Origin: a virus
Virus record (IMG/VR): IMGVR_UViG_3300046804_006063
Location: 1 to 28,733 of that record
Direction: 5' to 3' (one strand)
DNA length: 28,733 nt
Part shown: positions 1 through 27,606 of the stretch, piece after piece
Position numbering within the stretch: position 1 is the stretch's first letter
Layout: each line of letters starts with the position of its first letter
Program-made: the position numbers and the translations under genes
Notes under the pieces: generated by a model
Seen by the model: only the letters and a program-made list of their open reading frames with translations
What the model was told of the DNA's origin: nothing
Database searches by the model: none

Positions 1-1734
1 CCGACGAGCACCTGTCCATTCGGTGCCTTCTTCCATGTCGGCTTCTGCTAGATCAGCCGATGATTTTCTGGATCCATGTTTCACAATGTCTTCCAGATTA
101 TCAATGAGTTGGGCTTGGATTTCTTCATGGTCATCATCAGGGTGATAATGATAATCAACCACTATGTCATCTATCATTGATTGTAACTGTGGGAACCTGT
201 CCAGCAAATCAGATAAAGATTCACCACGTTGATGTAGATCAATAACTCTCTGAGCTAATTGAGTATCATCGTAGGAGATTCGTTTATTTCCAGCTTCGTA
301 CATTTCCTGACCTGGCTTCATGACATCAGTCATCAGATCGTCAGCTCGATCACCGCCCAGACCTTCTGATACTGGTTTGACGTCGCTCACAATTTCCGAT
401 CCAGTGGCATCGGCCATGTGATAGGCTTGAATTTCTGCACTGCCCTGTGACACTGCTGAGATAGTCTTGGTCACCGTTTTGCCGTTCTTTTGAAAACTCA
501 CTTCAAACTGTTGCATCTGTCCTTCCTTCACAGTAACACTGGTGCCTGGAGGTAACTTGGATGCTCCACCAGATCCCATGAGTTTAGCCACCTGAGCTGC
601 GCCTTGTTTATCATCCTTGTCCAATTCAATAGCCACAGTGCCTTTGGGAGTGAGCTGCACATTGGTCTTGGGCTCGTTGGGTTTTTCTGGTTGCTGCCCC
701 ATCAGCTTCTGCACAGCCTGCACCTTGGGATTGGCAGCCGCGTCCACTTCGTTCACAACACTGTCAGTCCACTGGGCAAATTCATCAAATTCTTTCAAAT
801 TACTCATCTGATATGCTCTCCATACATAGGGTAAACTGTGATCCAGTTGTTCATCATACTGATTGCGAACAAAGTGATTTTTTACCTCTGGGTTATATTC
901 AATTTGGGTTTGCTCTGCGATGGCTGGTGAGTATCGGCTATAACCCTTGACACCACTCAGCCCGTTGAGCATCTTCTTGACTTCAGCCAGTCTGAGACGG
1001 GCACTCTCGATCATACCCACTGCTGTGACATCTTCATACTGTTTGCTGTGGGTGCGACGCAAAAACTTACTGAGTGATACCGCTTCAGTGACAGCATTGC
1101 TGATACCCGATCCAGTGGCATCATAGGGATTGCCGCCCTGGGCCACGTGTCTGGCCATGGCTCTGGCTCCACGCAAGCTGGTAAACGGCATCAGAAATTT
1201 TTCGCCCTGGGCATTTTCCACATAGATCCGGTGTATTCGTCGAGTTCTGGCCCCACGTACATCATCATTGATAACATCAGTGTGTTTCAGGATGATTTTG
1301 ACGTCTTCCAGTGTCTGCACACTGGTTTTCACTGTGCCTGTCAGAGCGCTGAACTTGCTTTCCTGCACTGTGCGTTTGCCGGGTTCAGTTTCCACGTTGG
1401 TGACCTGGAATCCCAGCATGCGACCACGAGCCCATTCCTTTAGCTCAGCCAGAAACTTTGAAAAATCAGTGTTGAGCTGGTTGGCCATGTCCTGGTCGTA
1501 CTCCACTGTGACTTTGCTGACCACGTCAGCATCCAGTTTGCGCTCGTTGTCAGTCAGGCTGACTTTGACGTTTTCACTGGTGCCTTGGTCATCGTGATAT
1601 TCAAAAACAAAAGTGGTGACTTCATCATAGTCAGATGTTTCCTCACCGTCGGCATTCAGCATGTCCACTGGATGAAATTTCACATTCAACCATTCATATA
1701 ATTCTTCGCTGTGATTTTTCTTCTGTTTAGGCAT
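1..1734 (-). CDS. large phage structural protein, C-terminus beyond window
   Basis: The minus-strand frame is open from ATG at 1734 to the window edge (578 codons, no stop), so the 3' end is missing. I recognise no catalytic domain. The N-terminal ~200 residues look like a virion protein common in uncultured T4-like phages, including the segment ENAQGEKFLMPFTSLRGAR followed by AMARHVAQGGNPYD. A second segment near residue 300 (NLKEFDEFAQWTDSVV) is also typical of those proteins. The last 100 visible residues are acidic and His-rich (YHYHPDDDHEE). The gene follows terminase with an 11-base gap. A late-promoter-like box (AATAAATA) overlaps the terminase stop, with no Shine-Dalgarno. A structural role is inferred from resemblance and position; it is not the portal as far as I can tell. 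Coding is certain, function is not. Confidence 0.85.
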   Translation of the reverse strand, partial: MPKQKKNHSEELYEWLNVKFHPVDMLNADGEETSDYDEVTTFVFEYHDDQGTSENVKVSLTDNERKLDADVVSKVTVEYDQDMANQLNTDFSKFLAELKEWARGRMLGFQVTNVETEPGKRTVQESKFSALTGTVKTSVQTLEDVKIILKHTDVINDDVRGARTRRIHRIYVENAQGEKFLMPFTSLRGARAMARHVAQGGNPYDATGSGISNAVTEAVSLSKFLRRTHSKQYEDVTAVGMIESARLRLAEVKKMLNGLSGVKGYSRYSPAIAEQTQIEYNPEVKNHFVRNQYDEQLDHSLPYVWRAYQMSNLKEFDEFAQWTDSVVNEVDAAANPKVQAVQKLMGQQPEKPNEPKTNVQLTPKGTVAIELDKDDKQGAAQVAKLMGSGGASKLPPGTSVTVKEGQMQQFEVSFQKNGKTVTKTISAVSQGSAEIQAYHMADATGSEIVSDVKPVSEGLGGDRADDLMTDVMKPGQEMYEAGNKRISYDDTQLAQRVIDLHQRGESLSDLLDRFPQLQSMIDDIVVDYHYHPDDDHEEIQAQLIDNLEDIVKHGSRKSSADLAEADMEEGTEWTGARR

Positions 1735-1745
1735 ATGATTATTTA

Positions 1746-3308
1746 TTAGAACACTGCAATAAATGGCATGGGTTCGATGAATTCATCCTGCCGATCTGAT
1801 ATCTGTTGTTCCAGTTCTGGATGATAATTTTTCAGCACCTGGCTCATGCGTACCACCAGCATCAGCGCCATGACCAAATCGTCAGTCTCACCATATTTAG
1901 CTGCAAAACTGACTCCGCTGCTGATGAATGTTTTGAGTTCGCTCACCAGATTCTTACTGATTATGGTGATTTTGTCGTTTTCAACCAGGCTTTTGAGCTT
2001 GGCACAAGCTGCCAGTTTGGATTTGGGCGTGGTGGTAAAACCTTTGCGGTATCGGCGTGTCTGACCTGCTCTGGCTGGTTCGCTCAGGAACACTCCGTCA
2101 ATGTTCTCCTCACCGATTTCACTGATGCTGACCAGGGCAGCTTCCCCCAGGGTATTGTTTTCCACACTGTAATAGACGTTGTTGACACCTGCTGAATCAC
2201 TGCACCTTTTGACCATTTCTTTCAGCACCTGAATCTGCTTTTGTACCGGTGTGCGATTGTGTTGCCATTCGGCCACCTGAATCATAGTGGGCACTTCAAA
2301 AACTTCAATAGCAGCCATATCGCCGCCGGTGCCCAAGCTGGGGTCCAGTGCCACCAGATACAATCGATCTTTCTGTGGTTTGCGATACCAACGCACTTGC
2401 CCCTGAAGCTCTGCAGGATCCTGACCCTGCATTTCCAGCAACTTCATGCTGTTGATCAGGGTCTCATCAGCCACCACAAAGCTGCATTCATGTTCACGTT
2501 TGAATCGCTCTTCGCCAATACGAGCCATTTCGTCCTGTTTCCACCGTTCATCACGATCTGGGTGTTCATGCCAATAACTGCGATAGGCTTTGAACCCGTT
2601 GATGCCCAGTGGAGTGGGGTTGCCCCATTCATCAGTGCATCGGTTGGCTTGCTTCCAGATCTGAGCAAATTGATCCTCGTCACTGCTGGGCGTGCTGGTG
2701 ATCAGAGCCTTACCACCGGTGCTCAGTGTGGGTGAAATGGAAACCCAGAATTCTCTGGCAATACTGGGTCTGACGAATGCAAATTCGTCCAGGTAAAGCA
2801 GTGTGATACTCATACCTCTGCCGGTGGTTTCTGTGGTGGTTTGTGCCACAATGCGACTGCCATTCTCAAATTCTATACTGCCTTTGTTGTAGCTGACCAC
2901 ACCGGCTCTGATGAAGTCAGGTGTGGATTCATAAGCATATCTGATACGTTGCATGATTTCCTGAGCGCCAGTGTATTTGTGAGCAGCAATCAGGATGGTG
3001 CTATCAGGCACAAACATAGCATACCATAACAGATATCCAGCAGCAGTGGTGCTCTTGCCAGTCTGACGGGGAAGTAGGGCAATGGAGAATCGGTAGTTGT
3101 GGTAGACTTCCAGCAGTCTGATCTGATATTCAAAAGGCTGATACTGGATTTTTCCCCGGGTAGGGTGCTGAATATAAAAGTAGTTGCTCATGAAGTGCAT
3201 GGGTCCTGACACTGGGTCCATGCACTGAGCCAGTTCTGAAATCTGATGTTGAGTCCAGCTCTGGGCCTGATGTGGTTTTTTGATTAGATTGTAGTCCTGA
3301 TTGGCCAT
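1746..3308 (-). CDS. terL: terminase large subunit (T4 gp17-like ATPase and nuclease)
   Basis: This is the DNA-packaging motor, which pumps DNA into the prohead at the portal and cuts the concatemer. The 520 residues carry the full set of motifs. Walker A is RQTGKST (81-87), Walker B is LLYLDEF (170-176) with catalytic E175, and the coupling motif is TSTPSS (204-209). The C-terminal RNase H-like nuclease has D322 in LDPSLGTGGD, E383 in SVENN and D476/D477 in GETDDLVMAL. The length is somewhat below the ~600 of T4. The ATG at 3308 is preceded by a late-promoter box (TGTAAATA) ending six bases upstream and no Shine-Dalgarno, so the mRNA would have almost no leader. It is divergent from the HNH gene. 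Unlike T4, it is separated from the small terminase by about 7.6 kb. Confidence 0.96.
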   Translation of the reverse strand: MANQDYNLIKKPHQAQSWTQHQISELAQCMDPVSGPMHFMSNYFYIQHPTRGKIQYQPFEYQIRLLEVYHNYRFSIALLPRQTGKSTTAAGYLLWYAMFVPDSTILIAAHKYTGAQEIMQRIRYAYESTPDFIRAGVVSYNKGSIEFENGSRIVAQTTTETTGRGMSITLLYLDEFAFVRPSIAREFWVSISPTLSTGGKALITSTPSSDEDQFAQIWKQANRCTDEWGNPTPLGINGFKAYRSYWHEHPDRDERWKQDEMARIGEERFKREHECSFVVADETLINSMKLLEMQGQDPAELQGQVRWYRKPQKDRLYLVALDPSLGTGGDMAAIEVFEVPTMIQVAEWQHNRTPVQKQIQVLKEMVKRCSDSAGVNNVYYSVENNTLGEAALVSISEIGEENIDGVFLSEPARAGQTRRYRKGFTTTPKSKLAACAKLKSLVENDKITIISKNLVSELKTFISSGVSFAAKYGETDDLVMALMLVVRMSQVLKNYHPELEQQISDRQDEFIEPMPFIAVF

Positions 3309-3364: not shown

Positions 3365-3916
3365 ATGAGCGATACTCTAATTCTAACACCCGATTATCAA
3401 CCAGCAGATTTTCTACCACTCAGTGTGGTAGACTGGCAAACTTGTATCAGATTGATGTGCTTGGATAAAATCAAGCCTGTGCATCTGTATGAAAATCGTT
3501 GGATCAACAGCCCCAAGCTGAAAATTCAATTGCCCAGTGTGGCTGTGACCAGCGACCATTTCAATTTCCGCAAGGGTCGGGTCAGATACAGTCGTCATCT
3601 GATGTATGTCAGAGACTTATTCACCTGCCAGTACTGCGGAGAAATTTTCACTGCCAGAGAGCTCAGTATTGACCACGTGGTGCCACGCTGTGAAGGTGGT
3701 AAGACCAGCTGGGAAAACTGTGTGACCAGTTGCCGTGACTGCAATCTCAGAAAGGGTCACAAGAAGTGGAGACCCATCAACGCTCCGTTCAAACCAGACT
3801 ATTATGCTCTGGCTGCTCGCAGACTGGAATTACCCATACAGGTGGGTCATGAAAGCTGGCTGCCCTATCTGCAAGTGGGCGGCAGAATGGCACAGCGAGT
3901 TCAGATTCGAGCTTGA
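3365..3916 (+). CDS. HNH endonuclease
   Basis: A 183-residue protein with a complete HNH nuclease core: C88-x2-C91, then DH at 103-104 in SIDHVVPRCEGG, N118 in SWEN, and C123-x2-C126-N127 followed by RKG. The paired CxxC motifs form the structural zinc site, and H104 with N118 are the metal and catalytic positions. The N-terminal 80 residues (PDYQPADFLPLSVVDW, then MCLDKIKPVHLY) match the stand-alone HNH family found widely in phages and bacteria. It is transcribed divergently from terminase. HNH enzymes next to terminase often assist packaging cleavage in other phages, but it could equally be a free-standing homing endonuclease. A hairpin terminator lies 62 bases after the stop, inside the convergent gene. 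Confidence 0.93.
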   Translation: MSDTLILTPDYQPADFLPLSVVDWQTCIRLMCLDKIKPVHLYENRWINSPKLKIQLPSVAVTSDHFNFRKGRVRYSRHLMYVRDLFTCQYCGEIFTARELSIDHVVPRCEGGKTSWENCVTSCRDCNLRKGHKKWRPINAPFKPDYYALAARRLELPIQVGHESWLPYLQVGGRMAQRVQIRA

Positions 3917-3918: not shown

Positions 3919-4368
3919 TTATTTGCCTTTTTTGCGCCTGCCTGCACAATGAGCTCGTTGGCTGAACCCCTGGGGTCGGGAGCAATTGATACTACGTTTG
4001 TATCGGTTGCTCCATTTTTCTGTGAGCGACTGAATTACATCACTGGCCCGATAGGCCAGGGTCTCAGCTAGTGGTTCGTCAACGTCAGTGAGCTCCAGAC
4101 CCAGTTTTTGCAACAACGGAACCAGTTTGTGTTCCTCTTCTTCACTACCAAATACAATCACCGTTTGTGGCGGGCCCTGCCCAAAATCTTTGCGTTTGAC
4201 ATTCTTTAGGTTGCTGATTGCCTGCCCCACTTTATACCAGTCATATACGTCGCTGACTTTGACTCTGGTGGTGCCAGCAGGCATGGGAATCAGATTGCCA
4301 GTGTAGTGTATTTCTTTGGGTGCTCCTGGAGCGTCTTCGTCTTCAATCAAAAAATCTCGGGCTCTCAT
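3919..4368 (-). CDS. putative capsid-targeted protein (149 aa)
   Basis: The N-terminus MRARDFLIE|D fits the short leader-plus-cut-site pattern shared by its neighbours and resembles the T4 capsid targeting sequence cleaved by prohead protease. The central part has an alternating strand/helix look (PPQTVIVFGSEEEEHKLVP, then LLQKLGLELTDVDEP). The C-terminal ~30 residues are strongly basic and end in RRKKGK, which would suit DNA contact. The ATG overlaps the upstream gene's stop by four bases (ATGA), and AGGA lies about 10 bases upstream. The last codons double as the plus-strand terminator of the convergent HNH gene. No enzyme motif is recognised. The internal head location is inferred. Confidence 0.75.
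   Translation of the reverse strand: MRARDFLIEDEDAPGAPKEIHYTGNLIPMPAGTTRVKVSDVYDWYKVGQAISNLKNVKRKDFGQGPPQTVIVFGSEEEEHKLVPLLQKLGLELTDVDEPLAETLAYRASDVIQSLTEKWSNRYKRSINCSRPQGFSQRAHCAGRRKKGK
3979..4020 (+). terminator. rho-independent terminator of the HNH gene
   Basis: A 14-bp stem, GGAGCAATTGATAC pairing with GTATCGGTTGCTCC around a 7-base loop, is followed by ATTTTTC. Two pairs are G-U wobbles that exist only in the plus-strand RNA, so the hairpin favours that direction. It sits inside the 3' coding part of the convergent 149-aa gene. Confidence 0.8.
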
Positions 4369-4724
4369 CGTTTTTTCCTGGGATGGGCTTTGCTGTTGAA
4401 TGGACTCACACGGTGTGTGTCGTCAGGCTCTGCACTTTTACCCCTGGTCAGATTCTTTATGGATCCAAACCCACCAGCTTTACAGGCATGTTTGATGATG
4501 TTTTCATCAGCATCACTATAGGGAATAAAAAACGGCGTGGTTCCACTAGCACCATGACTAGGCACATTGGGTGGCTCGGGACTGGTGGCCATGTGTAAAC
4601 CAAAACGATACAACCCATAACCCTGATCCACACGTGGCAACATTTTGGCGTTGGGTATTACGCTGTCGTGATCTTTATGTATTTTACCTCGTCGTTTAGC
4701 TTCAAACAGTTCAAAAATTTTCAT
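4365..4724 (-). CDS. putative capsid-targeted protein (119 aa)
   Basis: A small basic protein starting MKIFELFE|A, where L-F-E|A fits the T4 gp21 prohead-protease consensus (I/L)xE|(A/G/S). The rest begins KRRGKIHKDHDSVIPNAKM and ends EPDDTHRVSPFNSKAHPRKK. That style of tail is familiar from short hypothetical virion-associated proteins of uncultured T4-like phages. A late-type box AATAAATA (4745-4752) overlaps the stop codon of the preceding gene and would give a 15-nt leader. The gene overlaps the following 149-aa gene by four bases. No domain is recognised. An internal head protein is the best guess from the leader and neighbours. Confidence 0.75.
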   Translation of the reverse strand: MKIFELFEAKRRGKIHKDHDSVIPNAKMLPRVDQGYGLYRFGLHMATSPEPPNVPSHGASGTTPFFIPYSDADENIIKHACKAGGFGSIKNLTRGKSAEPDDTHRVSPFNSKAHPRKKR

Positions 4725-4744
4725 TGTGTTATTCCAGTACCAAC

Positions 4745-4752
4745 TATTTATT
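4745..4752 (-). promoter_or_regulatory. T4 late-type promoter box upstream of the 119-aa gene
   Basis: AATAAATA, a 7/8 match, overlapping the stop codon of the ADP-ribosyltransferase-like gene. The predicted start is about 4739. Confidence 0.5.
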
Positions 4753-5431
4753 CCGCATACTGTGGAACCAGTATGTCAGTATTCAACACTATGATTTCAG
4801 GTTGATCACCAGTTAGATTAGTCAAACTATCATATCCCATTTTGCGAAAAATACTGTTGACGTCTTTATCAAAATATCTAAGCAACAGATGAACATGACT
4901 TCCGGATGAGTTACCATTGAACATATATTTCTTGATATCTTTGGGCATGGGCTGTCCTGTGATGTTCATTACTTGATCCACCAGCTCTTGTTTTTGTTCT
5001 GGGGTATAGGTTTGAGTTAGATCAAAAGTGTTATGTGGTTTCAAACGATAAGTTTTGATGTGTGGACCCACACCTTTTTGAGCGCCATAGAATTTACTGC
5101 GGCTGGCGCTTCTGGATTGTGCATAACGGTCAGCCACAGCGGGGTCTGGAGTTAGATAGAATCCCAATCCTCTGTTGCCCATGCGAGTTAGATACTGAGC
5201 TCCCCGTGTACTGGGTTTATCAAAATCTCTACTAGTCCCATGATAGTAAACTTGATCGGATGAAAACTTCTCCTCACCCAAATGCTTAAAATATTGAACT
5301 TGCCGTTCACGTTTTTCTGCACCAGATCTGCTGGAGTAACAACCCAGATTACGATTGCTCTTTTTGCTCAGGAGACAATATTTGGAGCCTCGTTTCACTA
5401 TGTGTTCAGGTAGGAAGTCCGAGGCTCGCAT
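4748..5431 (-). CDS. putative packaged ADP-ribosyltransferase
   Basis: The 227 residues begin MRASDFLPE, matching the capsid-targeting-like leader of the neighbours. The segment at ~14-46 (SKYCLLSKKSNRNLGCYSS, then AEKRERQVQYF) is a short basic motif seen in other phage virion proteins. From residue 61 the sequence fits an H-Y-E class ADP-ribosyltransferase fold: VYYHGT with H64, GLGFYLTPDPAVADRYA with Y92, and PEIIVLNTDILV with E212 near the end. Such enzymes bind NAD through the His and Tyr and transfer ADP-ribose to a target. This resembles ART-PolyVal-type domains more than T4 Alt in sequence, but the combination of capsid leader and ART is that of Alt, which is injected with the DNA and modifies host proteins. 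The ATG follows the 29-codon gene after two bases. Activity and target are inferred. Confidence 0.72.
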   Translation of the reverse strand: MRASDFLPEHIVKRGSKYCLLSKKSNRNLGCYSSRSGAEKRERQVQYFKHLGEEKFSSDQVYYHGTSRDFDKPSTRGAQYLTRMGNRGLGFYLTPDPAVADRYAQSRSASRSKFYGAQKGVGPHIKTYRLKPHNTFDLTQTYTPEQKQELVDQVMNITGQPMPKDIKKYMFNGNSSGSHVHLLLRYFDKDVNSIFRKMGYDSLTNLTGDQPEIIVLNTDILVPQYAE

Positions 5432-5433
5432 AG

Positions 5434-5523
5434 TTATTCACCCTTAAACAGTTCAGCGTTTTCTTTTACAATCTTGCTGACCGGCTTTGAGCTCCACGTT
5501 GATAAAAATTTTTCGTCTAACAT
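5434..5523 (-). CDS. 29-residue small protein
   Basis: An ORF of 29 codons, starting MLDEKFLSTWSSKPVSKIV and ending LFKGE. It is preceded by a 7/8 late box (GATAAATA, 5529-5536) with the exact five-base spacing to ATG seen at other strongly supported starts in this window. It ends two bases before the ADP-ribosyltransferase-like gene. It may be a real leaderless gene or the first cistron used to initiate that operon. No function is recognised. The AT-rich, Lys/Glu-rich composition is compatible with coding but cannot prove it. Confidence 0.55.
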   Translation of the reverse strand: MLDEKFLSTWSSKPVSKIVKENAELFKGE

Positions 5524-5528
5524 GTTTT

Positions 5529-5536
5529 TATTTATC
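5529..5536 (-). promoter_or_regulatory. T4 late-type promoter box before the 29-codon gene
   Basis: GATAAATA, a 7/8 match to TATAAATA, followed by AAAAC and ATG. The predicted transcription start coincides with the A of the ATG at 5523. Confidence 0.6.
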
Positions 5537-5542
5537 CAAATG

Positions 5543-5550
5543 CATAAATA
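5543..5550 (+). promoter_or_regulatory. T4 late-type promoter box for the GIY-YIG endonuclease
   Basis: CATAAATA, a 7/8 match. The predicted start is about 5556, giving an ~81-nt leader that opens with a strong stem-loop three bases in. It is back to back with the 5529-5536 box. Confidence 0.6.
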
Positions 5551-5558
5551 TCATGGGT

Positions 5559-5586
5559 GGCGAAAACTGCTGTAACAGTGTTCGCC
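5559..5586 (+). other. stem-loop at the 5' end of the homing endonuclease leader
   Basis: GGCGAAAACTG pairs with CAGTGTTCGCC (one A/G mismatch) around the loop CTGTAA. It begins about three bases after the predicted late start. It is not followed by a U-tract and does not cover the Shine-Dalgarno GAGGA near 5625, so mRNA protection is more likely than termination. T4 homing endonuclease genes also often carry leader hairpins. Confidence 0.6.
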
Positions 5587-5636
5587 CGCTGACGGATAAC
5601 TATCAGCAACCCGATTTTATTTATCGAGGATAACCA

Positions 5637-6608
5637 ATGTCTATTAGAACACCCTACACCTACTATCTCTCCCACATCCCCACTGGCCTAAAATATTACG
5701 GAGCCAAATGGGGAGCCAATGCTGACCCTAACACATTTTGGAAAACCTATTTCACCAGTAGCCCCACTATAAAAAAGATGATTGAACTGTACGGATCAGA
5801 TAGTTTTGTGCCTAAAATTCGCAAAATCTTCACTACAGGCACAGAACAAGAAAACATCGAACAATGTATTATGTGGGAGACAAAAGTAATCAGAAAAATT
5901 GTAGGTCACCCAAATTGGGTTAATAGATTCACCGCTAAATGCTCTCACGAAGTTCAGAAAAAAATTGGCAGAAAAAGAATAGCACAAGAAAGACAAATTC
6001 ACGGAGAAGAAGGATTTAGATTGCTACAACAGCAAAGAGGTGTGTTAGCAGGTCAAGAAGCTCTTTCTAGAGACGCTAAATGGTGGGAGAAATTTCATTC
6101 TAAAGGTGGGCAAAAAAATCAAGAAAAACGAGCAAAATTAAAAGATGAATTAGGCGTTGATCCATATCTAACGCCGCAAGGTCGAGCCGCTATGGCAAAA
6201 TCTTGTCAAGAAACATTTAAAAACACTGTTGAGTTATGGCATCCAGATTCTACCGTCACTAACAAAAGTCAGTCCGGCTATATTAACGGCCATTGTATTC
6301 GTTGCAAAGTTAACAGTAATAGATATTATGACTTATTGAATCAAGGCTATATCACAATTAGCGAACACATGAAAAAATTCAACAAAATGTCTAAAAAAGA
6401 TTATCAAAATTTATCACCAGAAGATAAGCTCAAAAGAAAACAGCGTGGTTGGGATAAAATGAGAAAAATCACAGCCCAACAACTTGAAAAAATCATTGAA
6501 CTTAAAAAGTTAAACAAATCTTGGAAAGAAATTTCTCAAGAAGTTGGGCTTGCGGATTGGTACTGTCTTAGACATTGGAAAAAGTCTTCTACTCTTCCTT
6601 GTTCTTGA
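5637..6608 (+). CDS. GIY-YIG homing endonuclease
   Basis: A 323-residue free-standing homing endonuclease. The N-terminal nuclease module has YTYYLSHIPTG (7-17) and KYYGAKWG (19-26) in place of GIY and YIG, then R62 in KIRKIF and E81 in IMWETKVI as the likely catalytic Arg and Glu. The middle is basic linker. A small module around residues 205-245 holds HCIRCKVN and may bind metal. The C-terminus (ITAQQLEKIIELKKLNKSW, then KEISQEVGL) looks like a helix-turn-helix for DNA recognition. The Shine-Dalgarno is GAGGA ahead of ATG. The gene is very AT-rich (27% GC in 6361-6420) compared with its neighbours, opposite in strand to the block it interrupts, and overlaps the convergent gene's 3' end by 20 bases. 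All this fits a mobile insertion. Confidence 0.87.
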   Translation: MSIRTPYTYYLSHIPTGLKYYGAKWGANADPNTFWKTYFTSSPTIKKMIELYGSDSFVPKIRKIFTTGTEQENIEQCIMWETKVIRKIVGHPNWVNRFTAKCSHEVQKKIGRKRIAQERQIHGEEGFRLLQQQRGVLAGQEALSRDAKWWEKFHSKGGQKNQEKRAKLKDELGVDPYLTPQGRAAMAKSCQETFKNTVELWHPDSTVTNKSQSGYINGHCIRCKVNSNRYYDLLNQGYITISEHMKKFNKMSKKDYQNLSPEDKLKRKQRGWDKMRKITAQQLEKIIELKKLNKSWKEISQEVGLADWYCLRHWKKSSTLPCS

Positions 6609-8028
6609 GAATTTGCTGAATCGGTTTTTTAGCCCACATACGACAGCTCCAATAGGCCGCCTTGGTTCTATCACTGGCTCTACCGGTTCCGCAGCCATGT
6701 CGGGCACGAAAGTTCTTGCGGCGTTTGGGATCATCTCGCTTGATTTCCATGTTCTTGTCGCCAAAGTTTACTTTTTTAACATTACCAGTTTTGGAATTCT
6801 TGACATAGACGCTGAATTTTTTAGGACCACTTGGTGTTCTCTTTGGTTTACCCAACTGAACTTCTCGTCCCTGATATTTGGCTTCTGAAATGATCTCAGG
6901 CAATACTTTTTCCACACACTTATCGCAAATATGCTCTTTGGGTCCAACATGGGATTTGATGTAATCTGCCTGTTGTGGATTTTCTCTGGCTAACTCGGCT
7001 CCGCTATATACATCTTTATAGGTCCCATAACAAAAATCACACTCAGGAGCACTGCTGGGATCTTCAGGTGGGTTATAACTATAGGCTTCTGTTATTCCAC
7101 GTTCTTGTGCTAGTTTTTTAAGATCACGTCTATTCAAAGGTGCAATAGATCCAATATCCTTGCGTGTTGGAAAACCCAGTTTTACATAGAGGTCTAAGTC
7201 CTGTGTTGTCATTTTTTCATAAGAACTCCAATCCACAGTGGTGTTAGGCTTTACGCCAGGTCCTTCCAGATAGTGATATATCTTAACTACGTCACCTTCG
7301 TCTTGTTCATAATTCTCTACGCTGTATTTTCCGTCACTGGATCTTACGATATCATCCATCTGATCTTGAAACTGTTCTTGTTCTTTGCGTTTTGTTTCAT
7401 ATTCTTCAGCAGCAGGATGTGTTTGCCCTGTAATAGCTTTCCAGGTTTTTCTAGCTTCTTCGCCTTTGGGGGTATCCTCAAAACCAATATTGTGTAGAAT
7501 TTCCAGATATCTCTTTCTGACTTCTCGGTCTTCACCAAAGGTTTTTCTATAGCTATTTGGACTAGTACCGCTGGTGGAACCCATTACTGGCATTCCAGCC
7601 CCTGATAGATACAGATCCCACATCAGTTTAAGCACCTGATCAGAGTTCTTTTTAGTTTCCAGTGTTTGCCGAAACCAACTGACTTTTTCTGGCTTCATGG
7701 GATATTTGCTGGGCTTACTGATTAATTCAAAAGCAGCATCTTTCATTGCTTGTAAGTCGGTGATGCTTTCCAGGTTTTTAATATCATCAGGAGTAAAGTT
7801 TACGTCTGGCTTTGACAGTTTTGCTTCGGTTAACTGAATCAGACCAGCATTTTCCATAATAGCCACACTGCGTTGATCCAAAGACAAAACAATGCCGTCT
7901 GCTAAAACTTCAGCCACTGTGGTTTCAATCAGCAGTTCCTGGTTGATTTCAAAGCCCACAGTATCGCCCACTGCTGGACGATACTGATGTTGTTCGGCTT
8001 CTGTTAGGTATTGTGCAAAAGTTTTCAT
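6589..8028 (-). CDS. modular capsid-targeted protein with zinc motif (479 aa)
   Basis: The N-terminus MKTFAQYLTE|A is a close match in style to the T4 capsid targeting sequence and its cut site. Further (L/I)xE|A sites occur at LTE68|A, ITE314|A and ISE382|A and fall between apparent modules. Residues 18-65 look like a small beta domain (VGDTVGFEINQELLIETTV). Residues 130-165 contain a conserved phage motif (LMWDLYLSGAGMPVMGSTSG). Residues 175-206 are repeated in the next protein. C330-x2-C333 with C368-x2-C371 form a probable zinc knuckle, and the C-terminal 80 residues are strongly basic with RNFRARHGCGTG and YWSCRMW. The start has an AAGGA Shine-Dalgarno and follows the 744-aa gene by 15 bases. 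A packaged, possibly processed head protein is inferred; no enzyme function is claimed. Confidence 0.82.
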   Translation of the reverse strand: MKTFAQYLTEAEQHQYRPAVGDTVGFEINQELLIETTVAEVLADGIVLSLDQRSVAIMENAGLIQLTEAKLSKPDVNFTPDDIKNLESITDLQAMKDAAFELISKPSKYPMKPEKVSWFRQTLETKKNSDQVLKLMWDLYLSGAGMPVMGSTSGTSPNSYRKTFGEDREVRKRYLEILHNIGFEDTPKGEEARKTWKAITGQTHPAAEEYETKRKEQEQFQDQMDDIVRSSDGKYSVENYEQDEGDVVKIYHYLEGPGVKPNTTVDWSSYEKMTTQDLDLYVKLGFPTRKDIGSIAPLNRRDLKKLAQERGITEAYSYNPPEDPSSAPECDFCYGTYKDVYSGAELARENPQQADYIKSHVGPKEHICDKCVEKVLPEIISEAKYQGREVQLGKPKRTPSGPKKFSVYVKNSKTGNVKKVNFGDKNMEIKRDDPKRRKNFRARHGCGTGRASDRTKAAYWSCRMWAKKPIQQILKNKEE

Positions 8029-8043
8029 TGCTTTTCCTTTATG

Positions 8044-10278
8044 TTAGTCTTGGACTTCTGTTGCACGTACAATTTTGCCATTCTTTACTTTGGGTAAGTG
8101 TTTGTCTTTTACAATACTCTTGGCATGTTTTGCGTCAGTGACATTTTTGATTACATGTGTTTTTGAAGCAATACCTGTACCGCTGGGATCATCATAGCTG
8201 ACTTGAACTTTGAAAGTTTTTTCGCCTTTGCTTTCGTTCATAAATTTATTACGCAAATTCTGAGCCAACTGGTCAACTGATTCGTCCACCATGCTCATGC
8301 TGTTATCTCTTGCAGCATGTGGGTTGTATTGACCGTGTGGAGCATTGGGTCCTCCTGACATATCCACCAACTGAGTTTGTGCATCCAGTGTTTGTGGGTC
8401 AGGTTCGTTGGCTACTTGCTCTCCCACTGGGACAGTTGCAACCGGAGCCGGAGCAACAGCGATACCAGCCATGGCTAAAATCTTCATTAGGTCCTCTGCG
8501 CCTTCACCATCAGCAGTTACAGTCACAGTTTTGTTGCCGGTTTTGCTATCCACATTGGTGGTAACATTCATGCCACTGGCTTGGGGAGCAGCCATGGGGC
8601 CCCAACATTCCATCATCCGCTTCAACTGGCCCAGCTCGGCTGCCCCATCTTGCTCTGATTCTTTTAGTTTCTGGTCATCTTTTTTGAGTTTCTTGGCTAA
8701 CTTGTGAGCTTCTGCAGTCTGTGCATCTGTGAGATCAACTTTTCCTGGTCCAAGATCATACTTTTTCTTGATGGCTGCTGTTGCCACTGCATAGTAATTC
8801 TTTGCTTTAGCTTCAGCTAGTGGGTCTTCACATACACAAGGACTTGCGCCACAGTCTTCGCACATTGCAGCTTCGTCTAAATCATCTTCATCGTCTACAT
8901 CAAAGTCATCATCTTCAGCACCCACAATAGCTGTTTTGTCTTTGTTATAATCCCACATAACCTCATCATCTGCTATCCAAATACAATTTTTTGGATTTTG
9001 AAGAAATTCGTCTAAATCGTCAGGATCTGTTGGTATATTAGCATCAGTAATAGGCTTTATTTTCTGATATTTTTGTTGTATTTGTTTATGTAATTTAATA
9101 CTAAGAGCTTTTAAATCTACTGGAACCCAAGGTTCAATACCATACCCAGTATCTTCTTGAACTTGATTTATTTTATCTATAAATTTAGTGAGATTATCTT
9201 TAGGTACTTTGACTATTAATAATTCTCCATCACTCATCATATAAATCCAACCTACAGGCACAGTGTTTAAATCAGCATTTGTACTAGATTTTTGGGTTTT
9301 TCTGCCTTTAGCTTGTTGATCAGCAGGGTGAGCTTGTCCAGTAGCTGTTTTCCAATTCTCACGAGCTTTCTTACCTTCTGGAGAATTTTCAAATCCTAGA
9401 TTGTGCAACTTTTCTAATTGTGGTCTTGGAACCGCTGGCATTTCAGCTTCGTTCAATTCCCCACCAGTTAGTTCTTCAGCACAATCAGGGCAAATAGTAT
9501 CTTCTGGTTCTAAACCATGTTGGGCATAGCCTTCGCCTGTGCCCAAATCTTCAGCTGACCAGTTTTCTTTCCAATCCTGTCCACAACCCCAGCAAGATAC
9601 ATTGTCGTCAACTTCAAAATGATCAGTATCATAATCATCAGTATCGATAGGTTCGTTACTAATCTCTGGCTTATAATTGCTGGGATTAGAAGTCTTCTTC
9701 ATCTGTCCATACAGTGCATGCTTGGTGGCACTGGCTTCGTCTAATTCGTCAGGGTCACTGTCTTCTGGGCTCATGCCTTCTGCACATTCGTCACACTCAG
9801 CACCGTCACCTGGTTCCCAGTTGGGCATGGGACGTCCACATGTTTCGCAAGTGTGTGGTTCATCTGGTGCACGACGACCCATTGGGGATTCAGACAGTCC
9901 TTGCTCTTCTTCAGCTTTGGTTTGGCAATCCACACACATACCAGTAATGTAATCCACATGCGCCTTATCGCCGCAACTTACACATTGCTTGATAGGACCA
10001 GCTTCATCAGATTCGCTAACTGACTTCTTTAGCTTGTTCAATTCATCAGTTGTTAGATGACGTGTAATTCGGTGATTACATTTAGAACAATGGTTTACAC
10101 CATCCCAGTCATCACTGATACTGGTTTCTGTGTAGTGGCCTTTTTTACACCGAATACAAGGTTCCCCAGACATATCAACCATTTGATGCAGACCCAATGA
10201 AAGTTGTTCTGGTTCAGGATTCGAAGTTTCTTCAGCCAGCAACCCATTCAGTTTGTTCAATAAATTTTGCATATCCAT
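8044..10278 (-). CDS. acidic multi-zinc-ribbon protein, possible polyprotein (744 aa)
   Basis: Five CxxC-pair modules are visible: C41/C44 with C64/C67, C99/C102 with C115/C118, C144/C147 with C162/C165, C230/C232 with C263/C266, and C473/C476 with C481/C483. They are linked by acidic stretches. The leader (MDMQNLLNKLNGLLAE|E) is longer than in its neighbours. Six sites fit (L/I)xE|(A/S): E130|S, E181|A, E277|A, E469|A, E489|A and E540|S, with near-matches at E666|S and E682|S, and they mostly lie between modules. Residues 289-319 repeat a segment of the 479-aa protein. Residues ~335-450 are encoded by markedly AT-rich DNA. AAGGA lies upstream of ATG. A prohead-protease-processed internal protein set is a plausible inference; a simple structural protein is the alternative. 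Confidence 0.8.
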   Translation of the reverse strand: MDMQNLLNKLNGLLAEETSNPEPEQLSLGLHQMVDMSGEPCIRCKKGHYTETSISDDWDGVNHCSKCNHRITRHLTTDELNKLKKSVSESDEAGPIKQCVSCGDKAHVDYITGMCVDCQTKAEEEQGLSESPMGRRAPDEPHTCETCGRPMPNWEPGDGAECDECAEGMSPEDSDPDELDEASATKHALYGQMKKTSNPSNYKPEISNEPIDTDDYDTDHFEVDDNVSCWGCGQDWKENWSAEDLGTGEGYAQHGLEPEDTICPDCAEELTGGELNEAEMPAVPRPQLEKLHNLGFENSPEGKKARENWKTATGQAHPADQQAKGRKTQKSSTNADLNTVPVGWIYMMSDGELLIVKVPKDNLTKFIDKINQVQEDTGYGIEPWVPVDLKALSIKLHKQIQQKYQKIKPITDANIPTDPDDLDEFLQNPKNCIWIADDEVMWDYNKDKTAIVGAEDDDFDVDDEDDLDEAAMCEDCGASPCVCEDPLAEAKAKNYYAVATAAIKKKYDLGPGKVDLTDAQTAEAHKLAKKLKKDDQKLKESEQDGAAELGQLKRMMECWGPMAAPQASGMNVTTNVDSKTGNKTVTVTADGEGAEDLMKILAMAGIAVAPAPVATVPVGEQVANEPDPQTLDAQTQLVDMSGGPNAPHGQYNPHAARDNSMSMVDESVDQLAQNLRNKFMNESKGEKTFKVQVSYDDPSGTGIASKTHVIKNVTDAKHAKSIVKDKHLPKVKNGKIVRATEVQD

Positions 10279-10290
10279 AATACTAATTCC

Positions 10291-10881
10291 TTATCGCTTT
10301 ATATCTTTTACTGAGGGCAATTTAGGCTTGTGGCTGCCCACGGGACTCAGGGTACCTGGCTTCAGATCATTGGTGGTTTCAGCAGCTTTTGCACCACCTT
10401 TGACTTTGACCTGACCTGTACCAGTTATGGAATTCTTCACCAGTTTGGCGTTGTAATCATCACCATATGGGTGCTGAACTTTGACTTTCTCGTACTCACG
10501 CATCAACAAGGGTTCAGTGTCAGTGTTGGCTGCAATACTTTTTGCTTCGTAATCCATGTCTTCAGCAAATGCCAGATTTTCCACTGCCACTGTGGCCTTG
10601 TCCACACTGTAATCAGTCAAACTTTTACGAATCTGTGTGGCAGTTGCAGGATACTCACACACCACATCCAGGGTGTAAATTTCCGGATTGGCCAGCCCTG
10701 GAAACATGGGATGAGCTTTCTCAATCATGTGACTACGGGCATCAGATACTGACTTTACGCCGTAGCCAGCCAGTGCTTGCTTGATGGTTTTGCTGAGGCC
10801 AGCCGCAGGTTTGGTAGCCAAAACAATGCGGAAGCTGTAATCTTGCTTGCTTTCGGTTAGATATTGCAAAAAACTCTTCAT
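10291..10881 (-). CDS. capsid-targeted conserved T4-like protein (196 aa)
   Basis: The start MKSFLQYLTE|S fits the capsid-targeting leader and prohead-protease cut. The core has FRIVLATKPAAGLSKTIKQA, then ARSHMIEKAHPMFPGLANPE and IYTLDVVCEYPATATQIRKS. It resembles a protein conserved next to packaging genes in marine T4-like phages, with a repeated strand-helix pattern suggesting a small alpha/beta fold. The C-terminal 60 residues are Lys/Pro/Gly-rich and probably disordered. A late-type box GCTAAATA overlaps the stop of the upstream small terminase and would give a 16-nt leader containing AGGAAG. The 744-aa gene follows after 12 bases. Function is unknown; a head-internal or scaffold role is inferred. 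Confidence 0.8.
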   Translation of the reverse strand: MKSFLQYLTESKQDYSFRIVLATKPAAGLSKTIKQALAGYGVKSVSDARSHMIEKAHPMFPGLANPEIYTLDVVCEYPATATQIRKSLTDYSVDKATVAVENLAFAEDMDYEAKSIAANTDTEPLLMREYEKVKVQHPYGDDYNAKLVKNSITGTGQVKVKGGAKAAETTNDLKPGTLSPVGSHKPKLPSVKDIKR

Positions 10882-10901: not shown

Positions 10902-11393
10902 TTATTTAGCTTCGGTGTCTTTTTTCTTCAGTATCTCAGCAACCAAAGCGTTGCGATCTATCACAGTGGCTACTCCATCAGACACTGGCACAGTGTTACT
11001 AAAGTCTGCTGCTCGTTGATCCAGTGCAGCTTTTTTCAGTTGCAATTCGATCATTTTAAGCTTCTTCTCTATCTTGTTTTTCTTGGCTGTCAGAGCATGA
11101 CCCAGCAGATTGCTAGCTGCACCAAAAATTTCCGCAGCATGGCGAGTTTCCACGTTCATGCCTAGCTCCATGAGATTCTGATAGCCTTCGGTTGCCATCT
11201 GAGCCAGCTGATCCATTTCACGTTCACTGGCTTCCAGCCCCACCACCTGAGGCAGAGCCTCGTTGATCTTATCCACATTGCCCACTGTCTTGGCAAGTTC
11301 AGTTATCATGGCTGGCGTCTGATGGGGTTCAGGTTCCAGCTGCACTGGTTCTGTATGTTCCAGGTTGAATATTTTTTCCAGATTGGTGTTCAT
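10902..11393 (-). CDS. 16: terminase small subunit, T4 gp16-like
   Basis: The 163 residues have the layout of T4-like small terminases. An acidic N-terminal tail (MNTNLEKIFNLEHTEPVQLE) is followed by a long helical centre with TRHAAEIFGAASNLLGHAL and a charged coiled coil (KNKIEKKLKMIELQLKKAAL). A short C-terminal element, VIDRNALVAEILKKK, is comparable to the C-terminus of gp16. These proteins form a ring that recognises viral DNA and regulates the gp17 motor. The gene overlaps the gp4-like gene by four bases (ATGA), consistent with translational coupling in a packaging operon. Sequence conservation in this family is low, so the assignment rests on architecture, size and context. Confidence 0.68.
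   Translation of the reverse strand: MNTNLEKIFNLEHTEPVQLEPEPHQTPAMITELAKTVGNVDKINEALPQVVGLEASEREMDQLAQMATEGYQNLMELGMNVETRHAAEIFGAASNLLGHALTAKKNKIEKKLKMIELQLKKAALDQRAADFSNTVPVSDGVATVIDRNALVAEILKKKDTEAK
10903..10910 (-). promoter_or_regulatory. T4 late-type promoter box before the 196-aa gene
   Basis: GCTAAATA, a 6/8 match, overlapping the stop codon of the small terminase gene. The predicted start is near 10897, ahead of AGGAAG and ATG 10881. Confidence 0.45.
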
Positions 11394-11824
11394 TGAGTTT
11401 TTCCCATGGTGAATATTTCACGTTCAGTGAGCACACGGAACTTGAAGCCATTTTTCTCACAGTAAGCCTGAGCTGCTGCCCACTTGGCCAGATTGCGAAC
11501 ACTCACCAGAGTATCTCGCTGACTGCGAGTTTTTTGCTGGCCAGTTTCCTTAAAGGGTTTGATTTCCACAATTTCCACATGCTGAGTTCCATCACGATCC
11601 AGGTACATGATGAAAAAATCCGGCACATACTGTGTTACTCGTTTTTTGAACGGACACATATAGGGTATGGCTATGGCTTCACTGGCCCATTTTATTATAC
11701 CTGGATGATTGTCACAGAAATTCATCATCACCAGCTCCCATGAACTTCTCCAAACAGGATTTCGCTTTCCAGCGTATTTATCAGGGTTTTTGGGTAGGAA
11801 TTTTCCTGAATGATATTTAGCCAT
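11390..11824 (-). CDS. 4: head completion nuclease, T4 gp4-like
   Basis: A 144-residue protein starting MAKYHSGKFLPKNPDKYAGK. Nuclease residues of a TnsA-like PD-(D/E)xK fold are visible: E30 in RSSWEL, D69 in VPDFF, and E87-x-K89 in VEIKP. In T4, gp4 joins filled heads before tail attachment and is needed for infectious particles, probably trimming or protecting the DNA end. The frame extends ten codons upstream, but ATG 11824 is preferred. It lies four bases after the preceding stop, has AGGG upstream, and matches the usual N-terminus of the family. It overlaps the small terminase start by four bases. Confidence 0.88.
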   Translation of the reverse strand: MAKYHSGKFLPKNPDKYAGKRNPVWRSSWELVMMNFCDNHPGIIKWASEAIAIPYMCPFKKRVTQYVPDFFIMYLDRDGTQHVEIVEIKPFKETGQQKTRSQRDTLVSVRNLAKWAAAQAYCEKNGFKFRVLTEREIFTMGKTQ

Positions 11825-11828
11825 GTAG

Positions 11829-12161
11829 TTACGCCCTGATCTCTCTCTGAACACTGAACGGCGTGTTCAGGTTTAGTGCTACGCCCAGTTTGGAGTTGCT
11901 CACACGATTCTGATTCAGATAACCGGCCAGCCAGACATCCTGTTCATAACTATCACCCTGCTGACGCATCAGATCAGCAAATTGCCCAGCAGTGAGGTTG
12001 AGACTCTTAGCCACTATGGCAAAAGCTGCTATGTATTCTTTTTGCAATTCAGGATCGCTAACTCGGGTTTGTACCAGACTTTTCAAGGCATCAAACTGAG
12101 TGGATTCTATAGCCACATCTATGGGGCCTGATTGCCCCTGACTGTTGAAATAAGTACTCAT
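11829..12161 (-). CDS. conserved T4-like small virion protein (110 aa)
   Basis: A helical protein of 110 residues with SLNLTAGQFADLMRQQGDSY, then EQDVWLAGYLNQNRVSNSKL and an ending LNTPFSVQREIRA. This pattern is familiar from a small protein found between tail and head genes in cyanophage-type T4 relatives, whose function I do not know. The start is well defined: ACTAAATA followed by ATGAT and ATG, with no Shine-Dalgarno, which predicts transcription starting on the A of ATG. It is the first gene of a tightly packed unit with gp4 and the small terminase, so a head completion or packaging role is plausible but unproven. Confidence 0.78.
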   Translation of the reverse strand: MSTYFNSQGQSGPIDVAIESTQFDALKSLVQTRVSDPELQKEYIAAFAIVAKSLNLTAGQFADLMRQQGDSYEQDVWLAGYLNQNRVSNSKLGVALNLNTPFSVQREIRA

Positions 12162-14184: not shown

Positions 14185-15723
14185 TTATTTTGAGTTGGCC
14201 TTATTCCAGACCCATCGAGCATGACCGCAGTCCCAGATTCGATCCCACCCTTGTGATTGCCTGTTTTGCCATTCAGTTAGATCTGGATTATCTTGTGCAT
14301 TTTTGCGCAAAGTGAATCTGTGAATTCTGGTTACATCAGGCAGTGAAAAATACCAATAGCCCGGAGAGGTATGTTTTTCCAACACAAAACCCAGGTTACT
14401 ATAACTGTCTCCAGTAAACCATTTGGAATCGGCATAGCTGACTACAGTGCATGGCTGTACTCGTCGACAAAATTCTGCAAATAATTTACCTGCCCCGCCT
14501 TGAACGATCAAGTCAGCAGAGCCAGCCATTCTTTGTATCTCCCATTCGGTATTTTTTCTGCTGATGTTTTTTTGACTAAACGTCATTGCATATACCAGTT
14601 GATCGTCATGTAGCAATCCCAGTCTGATCTTGCTGGCAGCATAACCGTGAATATGGTTTTTCTCAAAAAAGTTTCGGGCTTGAGCTGTGTCGAGATCTAT
14701 GATTTTGCACTTTCGTGCTGCTAACCGATTGGTAGTGATTCCCAAGTTTCTGATCAGCATCTGTTGAACAATATCTTTTTTGAAAATCCACTCGTCTTCG
14801 AAGATAGTAATAAGTTTGATTCCCTGATCTAGGCATCGTTGCCATTTGATTTGATGATACGCTGATGTCTTTTGTCCAGTATTCTCACTGTGCCAATACA
14901 AACCACAGTATTCAATAGCCAGTTTTTTCTCCGGAATATATATGTCCAGTTCCAGAGGAGTGATGACTGAACGATCGCCCAGTCGCACCGCTGAACTGGT
15001 ATGATTACGAACCCAATCACATATTTCCAATTCGGCTCGGCTATGCAAGGGAGATTTTTCACGACATTTGGGACATATATTGTGCAATATTTGTGATAAT
15101 TTTTGTTTATTGGAATTGGTGAATGTTCGAGTGAAATGAAATCTGCACACATTACATTCACAAATTATGGTATCACGATCGATATCAATCACAGCAATGT
15201 CGTATGATTCCAGCAATTGTTTTCTGTTTTCTATAGTTTGTATCCTGATTTCTTCTCGATGTTGCTGTGTACTGATTAGAATTTTCTTTTTGGTTTCCTC
15301 AGAATGTGTACGACCTGCCATACCACTGGTAATGTAGCCTCGAGATCTTTTAGTGACCACGGCTTTGTGAGCTCTAGTAGATAGTTCTTCTCGATTTGAT
15401 TCTGAATACTTTCTGACAGATTCACTTATTTTTTGCCGAGTCTCAGTTGAATGTGGGTTGCCTCGTAGAAATTCTCCGGCTTGATATCTGGCTTCTCGTT
15501 TTTTTATTCGATCACGGTGAGCTGCTAATAATTCTGGATCAGTGATTTTTTTGCCTCGATTGTGAGGAACTCGCTTTTGTTGCAATTGGCGAGTCTCTTC
15601 GCTGATCGTAGAGCCGTATTGTCTAGAATATTCTCTTCCAGTAATTCCGTGTTCTTTTTGCAAATGTTGGTAGGGTATGATTTTGGGAAACTCCGCATCG
15701 CACAATTGGCATCGTATTGACAT
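14185..15723 (-). CDS. Vsr-like (EDxHD) homing endonuclease with NUMOD repeats
   Basis: A 512-residue free-standing homing endonuclease. An N-terminal zinc finger (C5-x2-C8 then H-type ligands) is followed by NUMOD3-like DNA-binding repeats (NPHSTETRQKISESVRK and MAGRTHSEETKKKIL) and a second zinc module (CECNVC with CPKC). The nuclease is of the Vsr-like EDxHD class known from I-Bth0305I: E231 in AELEI, D260 in LELDIYIPEK, E271 and H278 in IEYCGLYWHSE, and D310 in IFEDEW. The last ~170 residues form a domain I know from Hef-like phage endonucleases but cannot name. A GTG 21 bases upstream is in frame. ATG 15723 is preferred because GAGAGG lies upstream and the perfect TATAAATA box predicts a transcript starting at 15739. 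It sits between tail sheath and tail tube. Confidence 0.9.
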   Translation of the reverse strand: MSIRCQLCDAEFPKIIPYQHLQKEHGITGREYSRQYGSTISEETRQLQQKRVPHNRGKKITDPELLAAHRDRIKKREARYQAGEFLRGNPHSTETRQKISESVRKYSESNREELSTRAHKAVVTKRSRGYITSGMAGRTHSEETKKKILISTQQHREEIRIQTIENRKQLLESYDIAVIDIDRDTIICECNVCRFHFTRTFTNSNKQKLSQILHNICPKCREKSPLHSRAELEICDWVRNHTSSAVRLGDRSVITPLELDIYIPEKKLAIEYCGLYWHSENTGQKTSAYHQIKWQRCLDQGIKLITIFEDEWIFKKDIVQQMLIRNLGITTNRLAARKCKIIDLDTAQARNFFEKNHIHGYAASKIRLGLLHDDQLVYAMTFSQKNISRKNTEWEIQRMAGSADLIVQGGAGKLFAEFCRRVQPCTVVSYADSKWFTGDSYSNLGFVLEKHTSPGYWYFSLPDVTRIHRFTLRKNAQDNPDLTEWQNRQSQGWDRIWDCGHARWVWNKANSK

Positions 15724-15744
15724 TGCTATTGAACCTCTCAACAC

Positions 15745-19244: not shown

Positions 19245-19589
19245 ATGAGGCCACTGTGCAAAACCTGTAAAACCCGACCCTGCGCTGTGAATTATCACAA
19301 CAGTGACCGAATCTACTATCGTAGTCGATGCGAACGCTGCTGGAAACAGAAGCGTCAGCAGGCCTATTCCAAACCAGTATGGCAGCTCAGAGGCTATCAA
19401 AAGAAAAACACCTGTGATCGCTGCGGCTACCGCAACAATGTTTCACAGGTGTTTGGTGTTTATTGTGTGGACGGTGATCTAAAAAACGCTCAGCCCAACA
19501 ATCTCAGAACAGTGTGTGCTAACTGTCAGATCCTGCTGAGTGTTAGCAATCAGGGTTGGACCAATGCTGAGCTGGTCAGCGATTATTAG
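19245..19589 (+). CDS. Cys-rich HNH-like zinc protein (114 aa)
   Basis: A small protein with two probable zinc sites: C5-x2-C8 with C29-x2-C32, and C57-x2-C60 with C91-x2-C94. The second half follows the HNH outline (CDRCGY, then VYCVDGDLKNAQPNNLRTVC), but the usual catalytic His is replaced by C74 while D76 and N86 remain. It may therefore be a binding protein or an inactive nuclease rather than an active enzyme. The N-terminus MRPLCKTCKTRPCAVNYH is the usual start of this family in T4-like phages of aquatic bacteria, which supports ATG 19245 although there is no Shine-Dalgarno. It overlaps the convergent dNMP kinase by 14 bases. Confidence 0.82.
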   Translation: MRPLCKTCKTRPCAVNYHNSDRIYYRSRCERCWKQKRQQAYSKPVWQLRGYQKKNTCDRCGYRNNVSQVFGVYCVDGDLKNAQPNNLRTVCANCQILLSVSNQGWTNAELVSDY

Positions 19590-25605: not shown

Positions 25606-26183
25606 AAATAAAATACTCCATAATATGCAGTACCATAGCATCCGGATTCAGATAATTGAATCAAATTGGATTGTGATGATCCTATGCAACTATCTAGCAA
25701 TTCTTTTGTTAATTCAATAGGATGACCCTCATGTGGGGGTATATTGACCCATTCGAAAATTCTTAGAGTTTTAGCTGATTTTTTTGCTTGAGATAGCAGT
25801 TTACGAACATCATGCACATGTTGCAAACAATTGTAGATCCAGACCTCATCCCAATCAGTTTCAATGTTGTTTTCACCCAAATCTACTTTGACATCAATGT
25901 TATGTATTGCATATCTGTCCACAGTCCACTTTGGATAAGCAATGGGATCAATAACCAAACCTTTTTTTAGGTTAATACACTTCAGCAACATGGAGGAAGG
26001 GCCTCCGCCAATATCTAAAATTGATTTTCCATGAACATCAAATGAATAATGAGTTCTGGAAAGTTGCATGTATTTTGCATAAACATAGTGTTTTTGATCT
26101 TCATCAAAAGTGTTACAGCAATTGCCCCAGTATGATTTCTCAAAATCGTATTCGTTATAATTTTCCATATATATTTTGTCCAT
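25602..26183 (-). CDS. SAM-dependent methyltransferase (class I)
   Basis: A 193-residue Rossmann-type methyltransferase. SAM-binding motif I is SILDIGGGPSSMLLK (54-68), the acidic loop is GLVIDP (75-80), and motif IV-like DEVWIYNCLQHVHD lies at 112-125. The N-terminal YWGNCCNTFDEDQKHYVYAK is typical of small-molecule methyltransferases found in glycan clusters. A second ATG five codons in (26168) is also possible; neither start has a clear Shine-Dalgarno. Overlap with the following glycosyltransferase by four bases and an 11-base gap from the gene before show an operon. It probably methylates a sugar made by the neighbouring transferases; this is inferred from context. Confidence 0.82.
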   Translation of the reverse strand: MDKIYMENYNEYDFEKSYWGNCCNTFDEDQKHYVYAKYMQLSRTHYSFDVHGKSILDIGGGPSSMLLKCINLKKGLVIDPIAYPKWTVDRYAIHNIDVKVDLGENNIETDWDEVWIYNCLQHVHDVRKLLSQAKKSAKTLRIFEWVNIPPHEGHPIELTKELLDSCIGSSQSNLIQLSESGCYGTAYYGVFYL

Positions 26184-26194
26184 TTAGATGTTGT

Positions 26195-27605: not shown

Positions 27606-27606
27606 A

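Follow-up and report, generated by a model that had tools for sequence, protein, structure and literature searches.

The products of a block of genes beside the terminase of a T4-like jumbo myovirus are quite probably substrates of a prohead protease of the gp21 type (S77); they would be trimmed of their leaders or cut at multiple sites, and their mature parts would stay with the DNA. The initial annotation had read six proteins of this block as internal head proteins with T4-like capsid targeting leaders, cut after a Glu by a gp21-like protease. This reading was retained for five of them (A149, B119, C227, D479 and F196), whereas the sixth, E744, belongs to another class. It is backed by the recurrence of the leaders in families, a T4-derived pattern with its control, gp21 homologues in relatives, a site in the major head protein, the Ser, Gly, Ala or Thr following the Glu and one homologue flagged in virions. 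Packaging and cutting of the block proteins are well supported by what we infer from the sequences, and injection would be a reasonable extension from T4. In addition, internal sites and shared modules, which had been missed in the first reading, suggest that several of the proteins are cut into pieces, beyond N-terminal trimming.

The window analysed here is an entire virus record of 28,733 bases and represents a fragment of the phage genome. Its terminase large subunit shows 55% identity to that of Pseudomonas phage PA5oct and is also related to those of Phosso, Atu_ph07, CBB and 121Q-like phages. Many closer relatives (terminase 65-70%) were found in environmental collections, and a nucleotide search of the window against phage records gave 0 matches. 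The gene order on the minus strand is neck, dNMP kinase, sheath, tubes, head closure, block, terminase and a 578-aa protein (Table 1). All six annotated ORFs were found on this strand with the N-termini that had been given for them, and an ORF caller scoring ribosome binding sites returned the same six starts. Likewise, the homing endonuclease said to interrupt the block is present as a GIY-YIG gene. The interval from the gene after head closure to the terminase is syntenic in 80 relatives, with homologues of F196, E744, D479 and B119; except for F196 and E744, its content differs among them.

Some further features of the region were noted. A homing endonuclease of family phrog_3339 lies between tube and sheath (14185-15744), and an apparent cluster of glycosyltransferase and methyltransferase genes (by eye) occupies 24724-28650 of the minus strand. 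At 19245-19589, a small Cys-rich plus-strand ORF overlaps the end of the dNMP kinase gene, and a similar ORF is found at the same place in the relative G002. In the near relative L124, an intein-like insertion apparently follows GRGMSIT and splits the terminase (L124:7037-9334).

Table 1. Block genes and flanking features in the window (↓, predicted cut or border).
Feature	Position	Strand	Leader or N-terminus	Description
578-aa protein	1..1734	-		clipped by window end; virion structural family (phrog_13484, E 2e-11)
Terminase large subunit	1746..3308	-		phrog_36964, E 1e-118; marker of phage group (T4-like jumbo)
HNH-type gene	3365..3916	+		between block and terminase; similar gene at same place in many relatives
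A149	3919..4368	-	MRARDFLIE↓D	C-terminal module SLTE↓KWSNRYKRSINCSRPQGFSQRAHCAGRRKK; junction logo, 32 contexts
B119	4365..4724	-	MKIFELFE↓A	conserved core, basic C-terminus, small family; 30-row alignment
C227 (227 aa)	4748..5431	-	MRASDFLPE↓H	module HIVKRGSKYCLL...KRERQVQYFKHLGE, residues 10-53; ART-like (ADP-ribosyltransferase-like) domain, residues 60-227
GIY-YIG (SegE-like) homing endonuclease	5637..6608	+		within block; PF19835, 27.7 bits, cut-off 25
D479	6589..8028	-	MKTFAQYLTE↓A	internal sites; C-terminal module IISE↓AKYQGREV...RARHGC...YWSC
E744 (744 aa)	8044..10278	-	MDMQNLLNKLNGLLAE↓E	long amphipathic N-terminus; many internal hydrophobic-x-E sites
F196 (196 aa)	10291..10881	-	MKSFLQYLTE↓S	ferredoxin-like domain, disordered tail; most conserved of block
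Head closure protein	11390..11854	-		phrog_218, E 4e-44; opposite flank of block from terminase

The five leaders are real and recur family-wide. For their detection two patterns were used, a strict motif (M[K/R] at the start and [LIVMF]xE with its Glu at residue 8-12) and a T4-derived pattern following the positions of IPIII (Glu preceded by hydrophobic residues at -2 and -3 and by a hydrophobic residue or Ala at -6). Within the window, 5/6 block genes and 0/22 other called genes carry the strict motif (hypergeometric ~6e-5, by hand). For the relatives, the syntenic block was compared in up to 80 contigs, with genes reduced at 60% identity. In Fisher tests, whose p-values assume independent genes, yet families recur, the strict motif was found in 63/150 block genes vs 20/360 others (odds ratio 12, p 4e-22) and the T4-derived pattern in 56/150 vs 8/360 (odds ratio 26, p 2e-25). 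When the strict motif was moved to residues 28-32 as a control, there was no comparable signal (15% of block genes vs 9% of others). In the T4 proteome, the T4-derived pattern matched 12/271 genes, among them ipII, ipIII, alt, gene 24 and gene 2. In the window it is matched by A149, C227, D479 and F196; B119 fits the looser motif only and E744 neither. Mutations in IPIII assign targeting to its residues 4 and 7, and residues 8 and 10 to processing (PMC9026906); in the case of D479 (MKTFAQYLTE) and F196 (MKSFLQYLTE), F4, Y7, L8 and E10 are all present. The residue after the predicted cut in the 63 reduced leaders is mostly Ser, Gly, Ala or Thr (S16, G9, A8, T6; 39/63 together).

Several classes of leaders recur in the relatives, namely MK(S/T/N/A)FxxYLxE in the F196 family, and MKIxEIIxE and MRAx(E/D)F(I/L/V)xE on B119-like as well as other bodies. 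Generic amphipathic N-terminal helices with no targeting role, kept by recent gene duplication, might give a similar picture, and some adjacent genes do have near-identical leaders (L077, L068). We consider this explanation very unlikely, as leaders are alike and bodies divergent in two families (0.58 v 0.34 for F196 and 0.54 v 0.29), one leader type is found on unrelated bodies, and the pattern is concentrated in the block and fits the T4 functional positions.

Leaders of this kind were also observed in other settings. T4 gp61.1 (L219:18966-19130; 54 aa, hypothetical) has a textbook capsid targeting leader, MKTFKEFIKE↓D, at its start, and its record annotation is not that of an internal protein. 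One relative has another leader-gene cluster at a distance from the terminase, in which MRASDFLIE↓G stands before a zincin-like HELTHYKQD protein (L094:10407-10790; G002:130407-130790). At L014:8076-8870, a D479-type gene runs, apparently via a frameshift, into a B119-type gene, and the leader MKIRDIISE↓A is thus internal.

The initial annotation had proposed a search for a gp21 homologue as a check. This was positive for the relatives, with an S77 protease in 5/8 long ones, and negative for the window fragment, where no gp21 gene lies within the 28.7 kb. The protease was also found in 9/19 long contigs carrying the modules described below; it was not found in 3/8 long relatives and 10/19 module contigs, which may be fragments. 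Its gene adjoins the homologues of the portal and the major head protein and lies between the two in one relative's genome. The propeptides of the major head protein in 7 relatives, including PA5oct, carry LxE↓(N/S/T)A at the same place. This predicted cut is what would be expected of a second substrate of the same protease.

Virion detection in PA5oct was taken from notes in its genome record, which flag ESI-MS/MS on gp282, the F196 homologue, and on gp281, which stands at the position of E744 and D479. Leader proteins elsewhere in PA5oct are flagged in the same manner, for example MKIKDILVE↓S and, next to the portal, MKINDIITE↓G, and overall its leaders are weakly enriched among MS-flagged proteins (5/86 v 6/335, p 0.05). 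The F196 homologues of PA5oct and Phosso carry no LxE (MKSFRDYYDASKRK, MKNFYEYLSSVKRE). Therefore, cutting is not universal in the F196 family and, as gp282 suggests, packaging in this family may not require it.

In the case of F196, E10 is kept in 34/44 homologues. Its AlphaFold model has a leader helix at residues 4-10 and a ferredoxin-like fold at residues 15-103 (pLDDT about 90). A fold search returned mostly generic ferredoxin-like matches (e.g. ribosomal protein S6) and unnamed phage proteins, and pointed to no function. In the case of A149, leader and module are both retained in L124. The leader of B119 is one residue shorter than the family form (MKIxEIIxE or MRAxEFxxE), and internal hydrophobic-x-E sites are depleted in the bodies of its family (2 v 9 expected), which is the expectation for a stable product.

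The opposite was found for the larger proteins. Internal sites, (I/L/V/M/F)xE(A/G/S/T) outside the leaders, were counted over related sequences and compared with composition-matched shuffles. They are in excess in the families of D479 (51 v 18 expected, 2.9x), E744 (218 v 80, 2.7x) and the 578-aa protein (215 v 96, 2.2x), and the window copy of E744 alone has 9 v 3.4 expected (p 0.004). Control motifs (Asp, shifted, mirrored, charged/polar after) mostly gave 0.6-1.3x in the same families, with 0.6-1.25x for E744; the neighbouring motif hydrophobic-E reached 1.75x in D479 and 1.46x in the 578-aa family. By the same statistic, sheath and tail tube 2 showed no excess, and in T4 it placed gp21, gp22 and gp23 within the top five proteins. 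The sequences thus suggest that E744 may be a gp22-like multi-site core substrate, and the 578-aa protein likely belongs to the same substrate set. A family scan gave no homology match of E744 or D479 to gp22, gp67 or gp68, and in relatives a separate gene, phrog_10922, occupies the T4 gp22 position between protease and major head protein.

The sixth leader of the initial annotation, MDMQNLLNKLNGLLAE↓E of E744, is present in the sequence, and it proved to be of another, longer class that fails both leader patterns. Among the members of its family, 15/23 have no hydrophobic-x-E↓(A/G/S/T/N) in the first 30 residues, and most start with M..NIYxILxKLxxL. The relative in L124 has MDFKPLIEKLAKMVAE↓A at that N-terminal place, so E744 may have a longer leader.

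Three unrelated small Cys/basic modules occur in the block and are widespread across phage contigs. Module 1 is the C-terminus of A149 (KWSxKYKxSINC...GFSQxAHC), module 2 is found in C227 (HIVKxxxxYxLxSKK...KRERQVQYFKH) and module 3 is the C-terminus of D479 (A(E/K)YQGxxVxLGKP...RARHxC...YWSC), the last being DUF5754/phrog_7595-like (phrog_7595, E 3e-14). Their position varies from directly behind a leader of 9 residues to over 900 residues inside a protein. Distinct border contexts were compared for modules 1, 2 and 3 (n=32, 58 and 70). The residue before the module (P1) is Glu in 94, 98 and 96% and Asp in 0%, P3 is hydrophobic in 94, 86 and 89%, and P2 is variable. An acidic-linker reading of these borders was rejected, since Glu is never exchanged for Asp there and the control motif with Asp shows no enrichment.

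A different explanation is that hydrophobic-x-E belongs to the fold of the modules, travels with them as they are shuffled and is no cut site. The signature is indeed conserved for three unrelated modules, in terminal and internal copies, and the cuts are predicted ones. Free-standing copies of two modules begin just past the Glu, though. In pelagiphages that do not look T4-like, module 3 is a gene of its own and starts M↓AKYQGRTVKLNKP or M↓AKYKGRTVKLNKP (M↓AKYQG type), and two copies of module 1 start M↓AWSDK and M↓SWSNK. These starts coincide exactly with the predicted cut position, i.e. with the product that a cut at E↓A would release. Moreover, the Glu is never replaced by Asp, P2 varies, and the same signature is found in leaders and major head proteins. 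A role in the module fold is for these reasons improbable. The modules are absent from PA5oct, T4 and the sampled part of Phosso; PA5oct virion data are consequently uninformative on the borders. T4-like isolates with modules are Pelagibacter phage HTVC008M and Methylophilales phage Melnitz, for which the predicted ends are ...PLEE↓AEFQG or ...PMME↓SEYQG. Literature on DUF5754/DUF6321 in phages offered nothing helpful.

Related modules were seen beside other genes. RB43 57B (L208:2518-3141; annotated RNA ligase, 2H-phosphoesterase-like by eye) ends in a HIVK/KRERQ-type module after DITE↓H, and T4 57B adjoins ipI. In Roseobacter phage CRP-6 gp55 (L212:2935-3624), a RARHxC/YWSC module precedes an apparent HK97-type prohead protease (by eye).

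Residues 60-227 of C227 are a probable ADP-ribosyltransferase (ART) domain of the H-Y-E type. The match of C227 itself to DUF3990 and ART-PolyVal is weak (E about 1e-4; 22.7-22.8 bits, under the cut-off of 31-32), and its homologues L205 and L206, which are phage polyvalent proteins, score above the ART-PolyVal cut-off (47-49 bits). The H-Y-E residues (YHGT, GFY, EIIVL) align by eye with L205-L207. Pfam and PHROGs scans gave no match to the T4 Alt family. The AlphaFold model from 14 rows had a pLDDT of 49.5, with the ART part not resolved, and the weak PDB sequence matches of this part, to influenza PB2 only, were taken as chance. The Glu of C227 is conserved also at internal copies of the same module in other proteins and therefore denotes the edge of a module no less than the end of a leader.

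Taken together, a mechanism can be proposed on the model of T4. The amphipathic leaders of A149, B119, C227, D479 and F196, 8-10 residues long, would direct the proteins into the prohead by binding to the scaffold core. Here, the protease would cut after Glu at (hydrophobic)-x-E and remove the leaders. D479, E744 and the 578-aa protein have many more sites and would probably yield several pieces, the mobile Cys/basic modules included. The mature proteins would stay associated with the DNA, which they would probably accompany into the host; there, C227, if active as an ADP-ribosyltransferase, would modify host proteins in the way T4 Alt does. In T4, the injected Ip1-3 inhibit type IV restriction (PMC12373910).

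The block proteins could instead be structural proteins of the head core, packaged by T4-like leaders to build or fill the large head in the manner of an inner body, neither injected nor acting on the host. F196 occurs throughout the relatives and has a simple ferredoxin-like fold, E744 and the 578-aa protein resemble multi-cut core proteins, and an inner body embedded in the DNA, of unidentified proteins, is known from phAPEC6, a jumbo phage that is likewise T4-like (PMC7247149). Against this, block content apart from F196 and E744 is variable, as would fit accessory cargo; an ART-like domain is seen in C227, and in a relative a leader precedes the zincin-like HELTH protein. A purely structural role is thus possible, if somewhat doubtful. 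Beyond the block, there may be an even chance that T4-like phages have a general modular system, in which small mobile modules, enzymes and leaders are joined by hydrophobic-x-E borders. In such a system, polyproteins would be cut by the prohead protease into pieces that reside in the capsid or are injected, and gaining a leader or a border would suffice to recruit new cargo.

The leaders of T4 led to internal proteins that were later found to block bacterial restriction systems (PMC12373910). In T4-like jumbo phages, whose far larger gene pool is mostly unassigned, the T4-type leader offers a sequence rule for finding packaged, possibly injected proteins. The block itself supplies candidates for proteins that reach the bacterial cell during infection, and for the inner body of phAPEC6 and similar phages, leader and module proteins are direct candidates. 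From the module borders, mature ends are predicted to the residue and can be checked in virion mass-spectrometry data.

The closest known counterparts include T4 IPI, IPII and IPIII, in which a short leader has hydrophobic or aromatic residues at the IPIII key positions and then hydrophobic-x-E, as in the block. The T4 internal proteins have unrelated bodies with the leader alone in common (PMC12373910), and so do the block proteins, whose mature parts showed no similarity to them in family scans. In contrast, the block is compact, lies beside the terminase and has more members; its internal sites and shared modules had no such description for T4 internal proteins in the literature that we found. 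The core proteins gp22, gp67 and gp68 of T4 have multiple hydrophobic-x-E sites like the E744, D479 and 578-aa families, whereas the E744 family is much longer, contains Cys and has no sequence match to them. T4 Alt combines a leader with an ART domain, as C227 probably does, but Alt has 682 aa, and C227, with 227 aa, is weakly of ART-PolyVal/DUF3990 type with another N-terminal module. The ART domains of L205-L207, within large phage proteins, are related to the ART-like part of C227; these polyvalent proteins are giant and multidomain, unlike the short C227 with its capsid-type leader. Finally, the inner-body and ejection proteins of phiKZ and SPN3US are comparable; these giant phages also have many head proteins, several of them cut after x-x-E (PMC5694885, PMC10052503). 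Their propeptides mostly exceed 100 residues, with an A-x-E site in SPN3US, in contrast to the block leaders of 8-10 residues ending in (L/I/V/F/M)-x-E.
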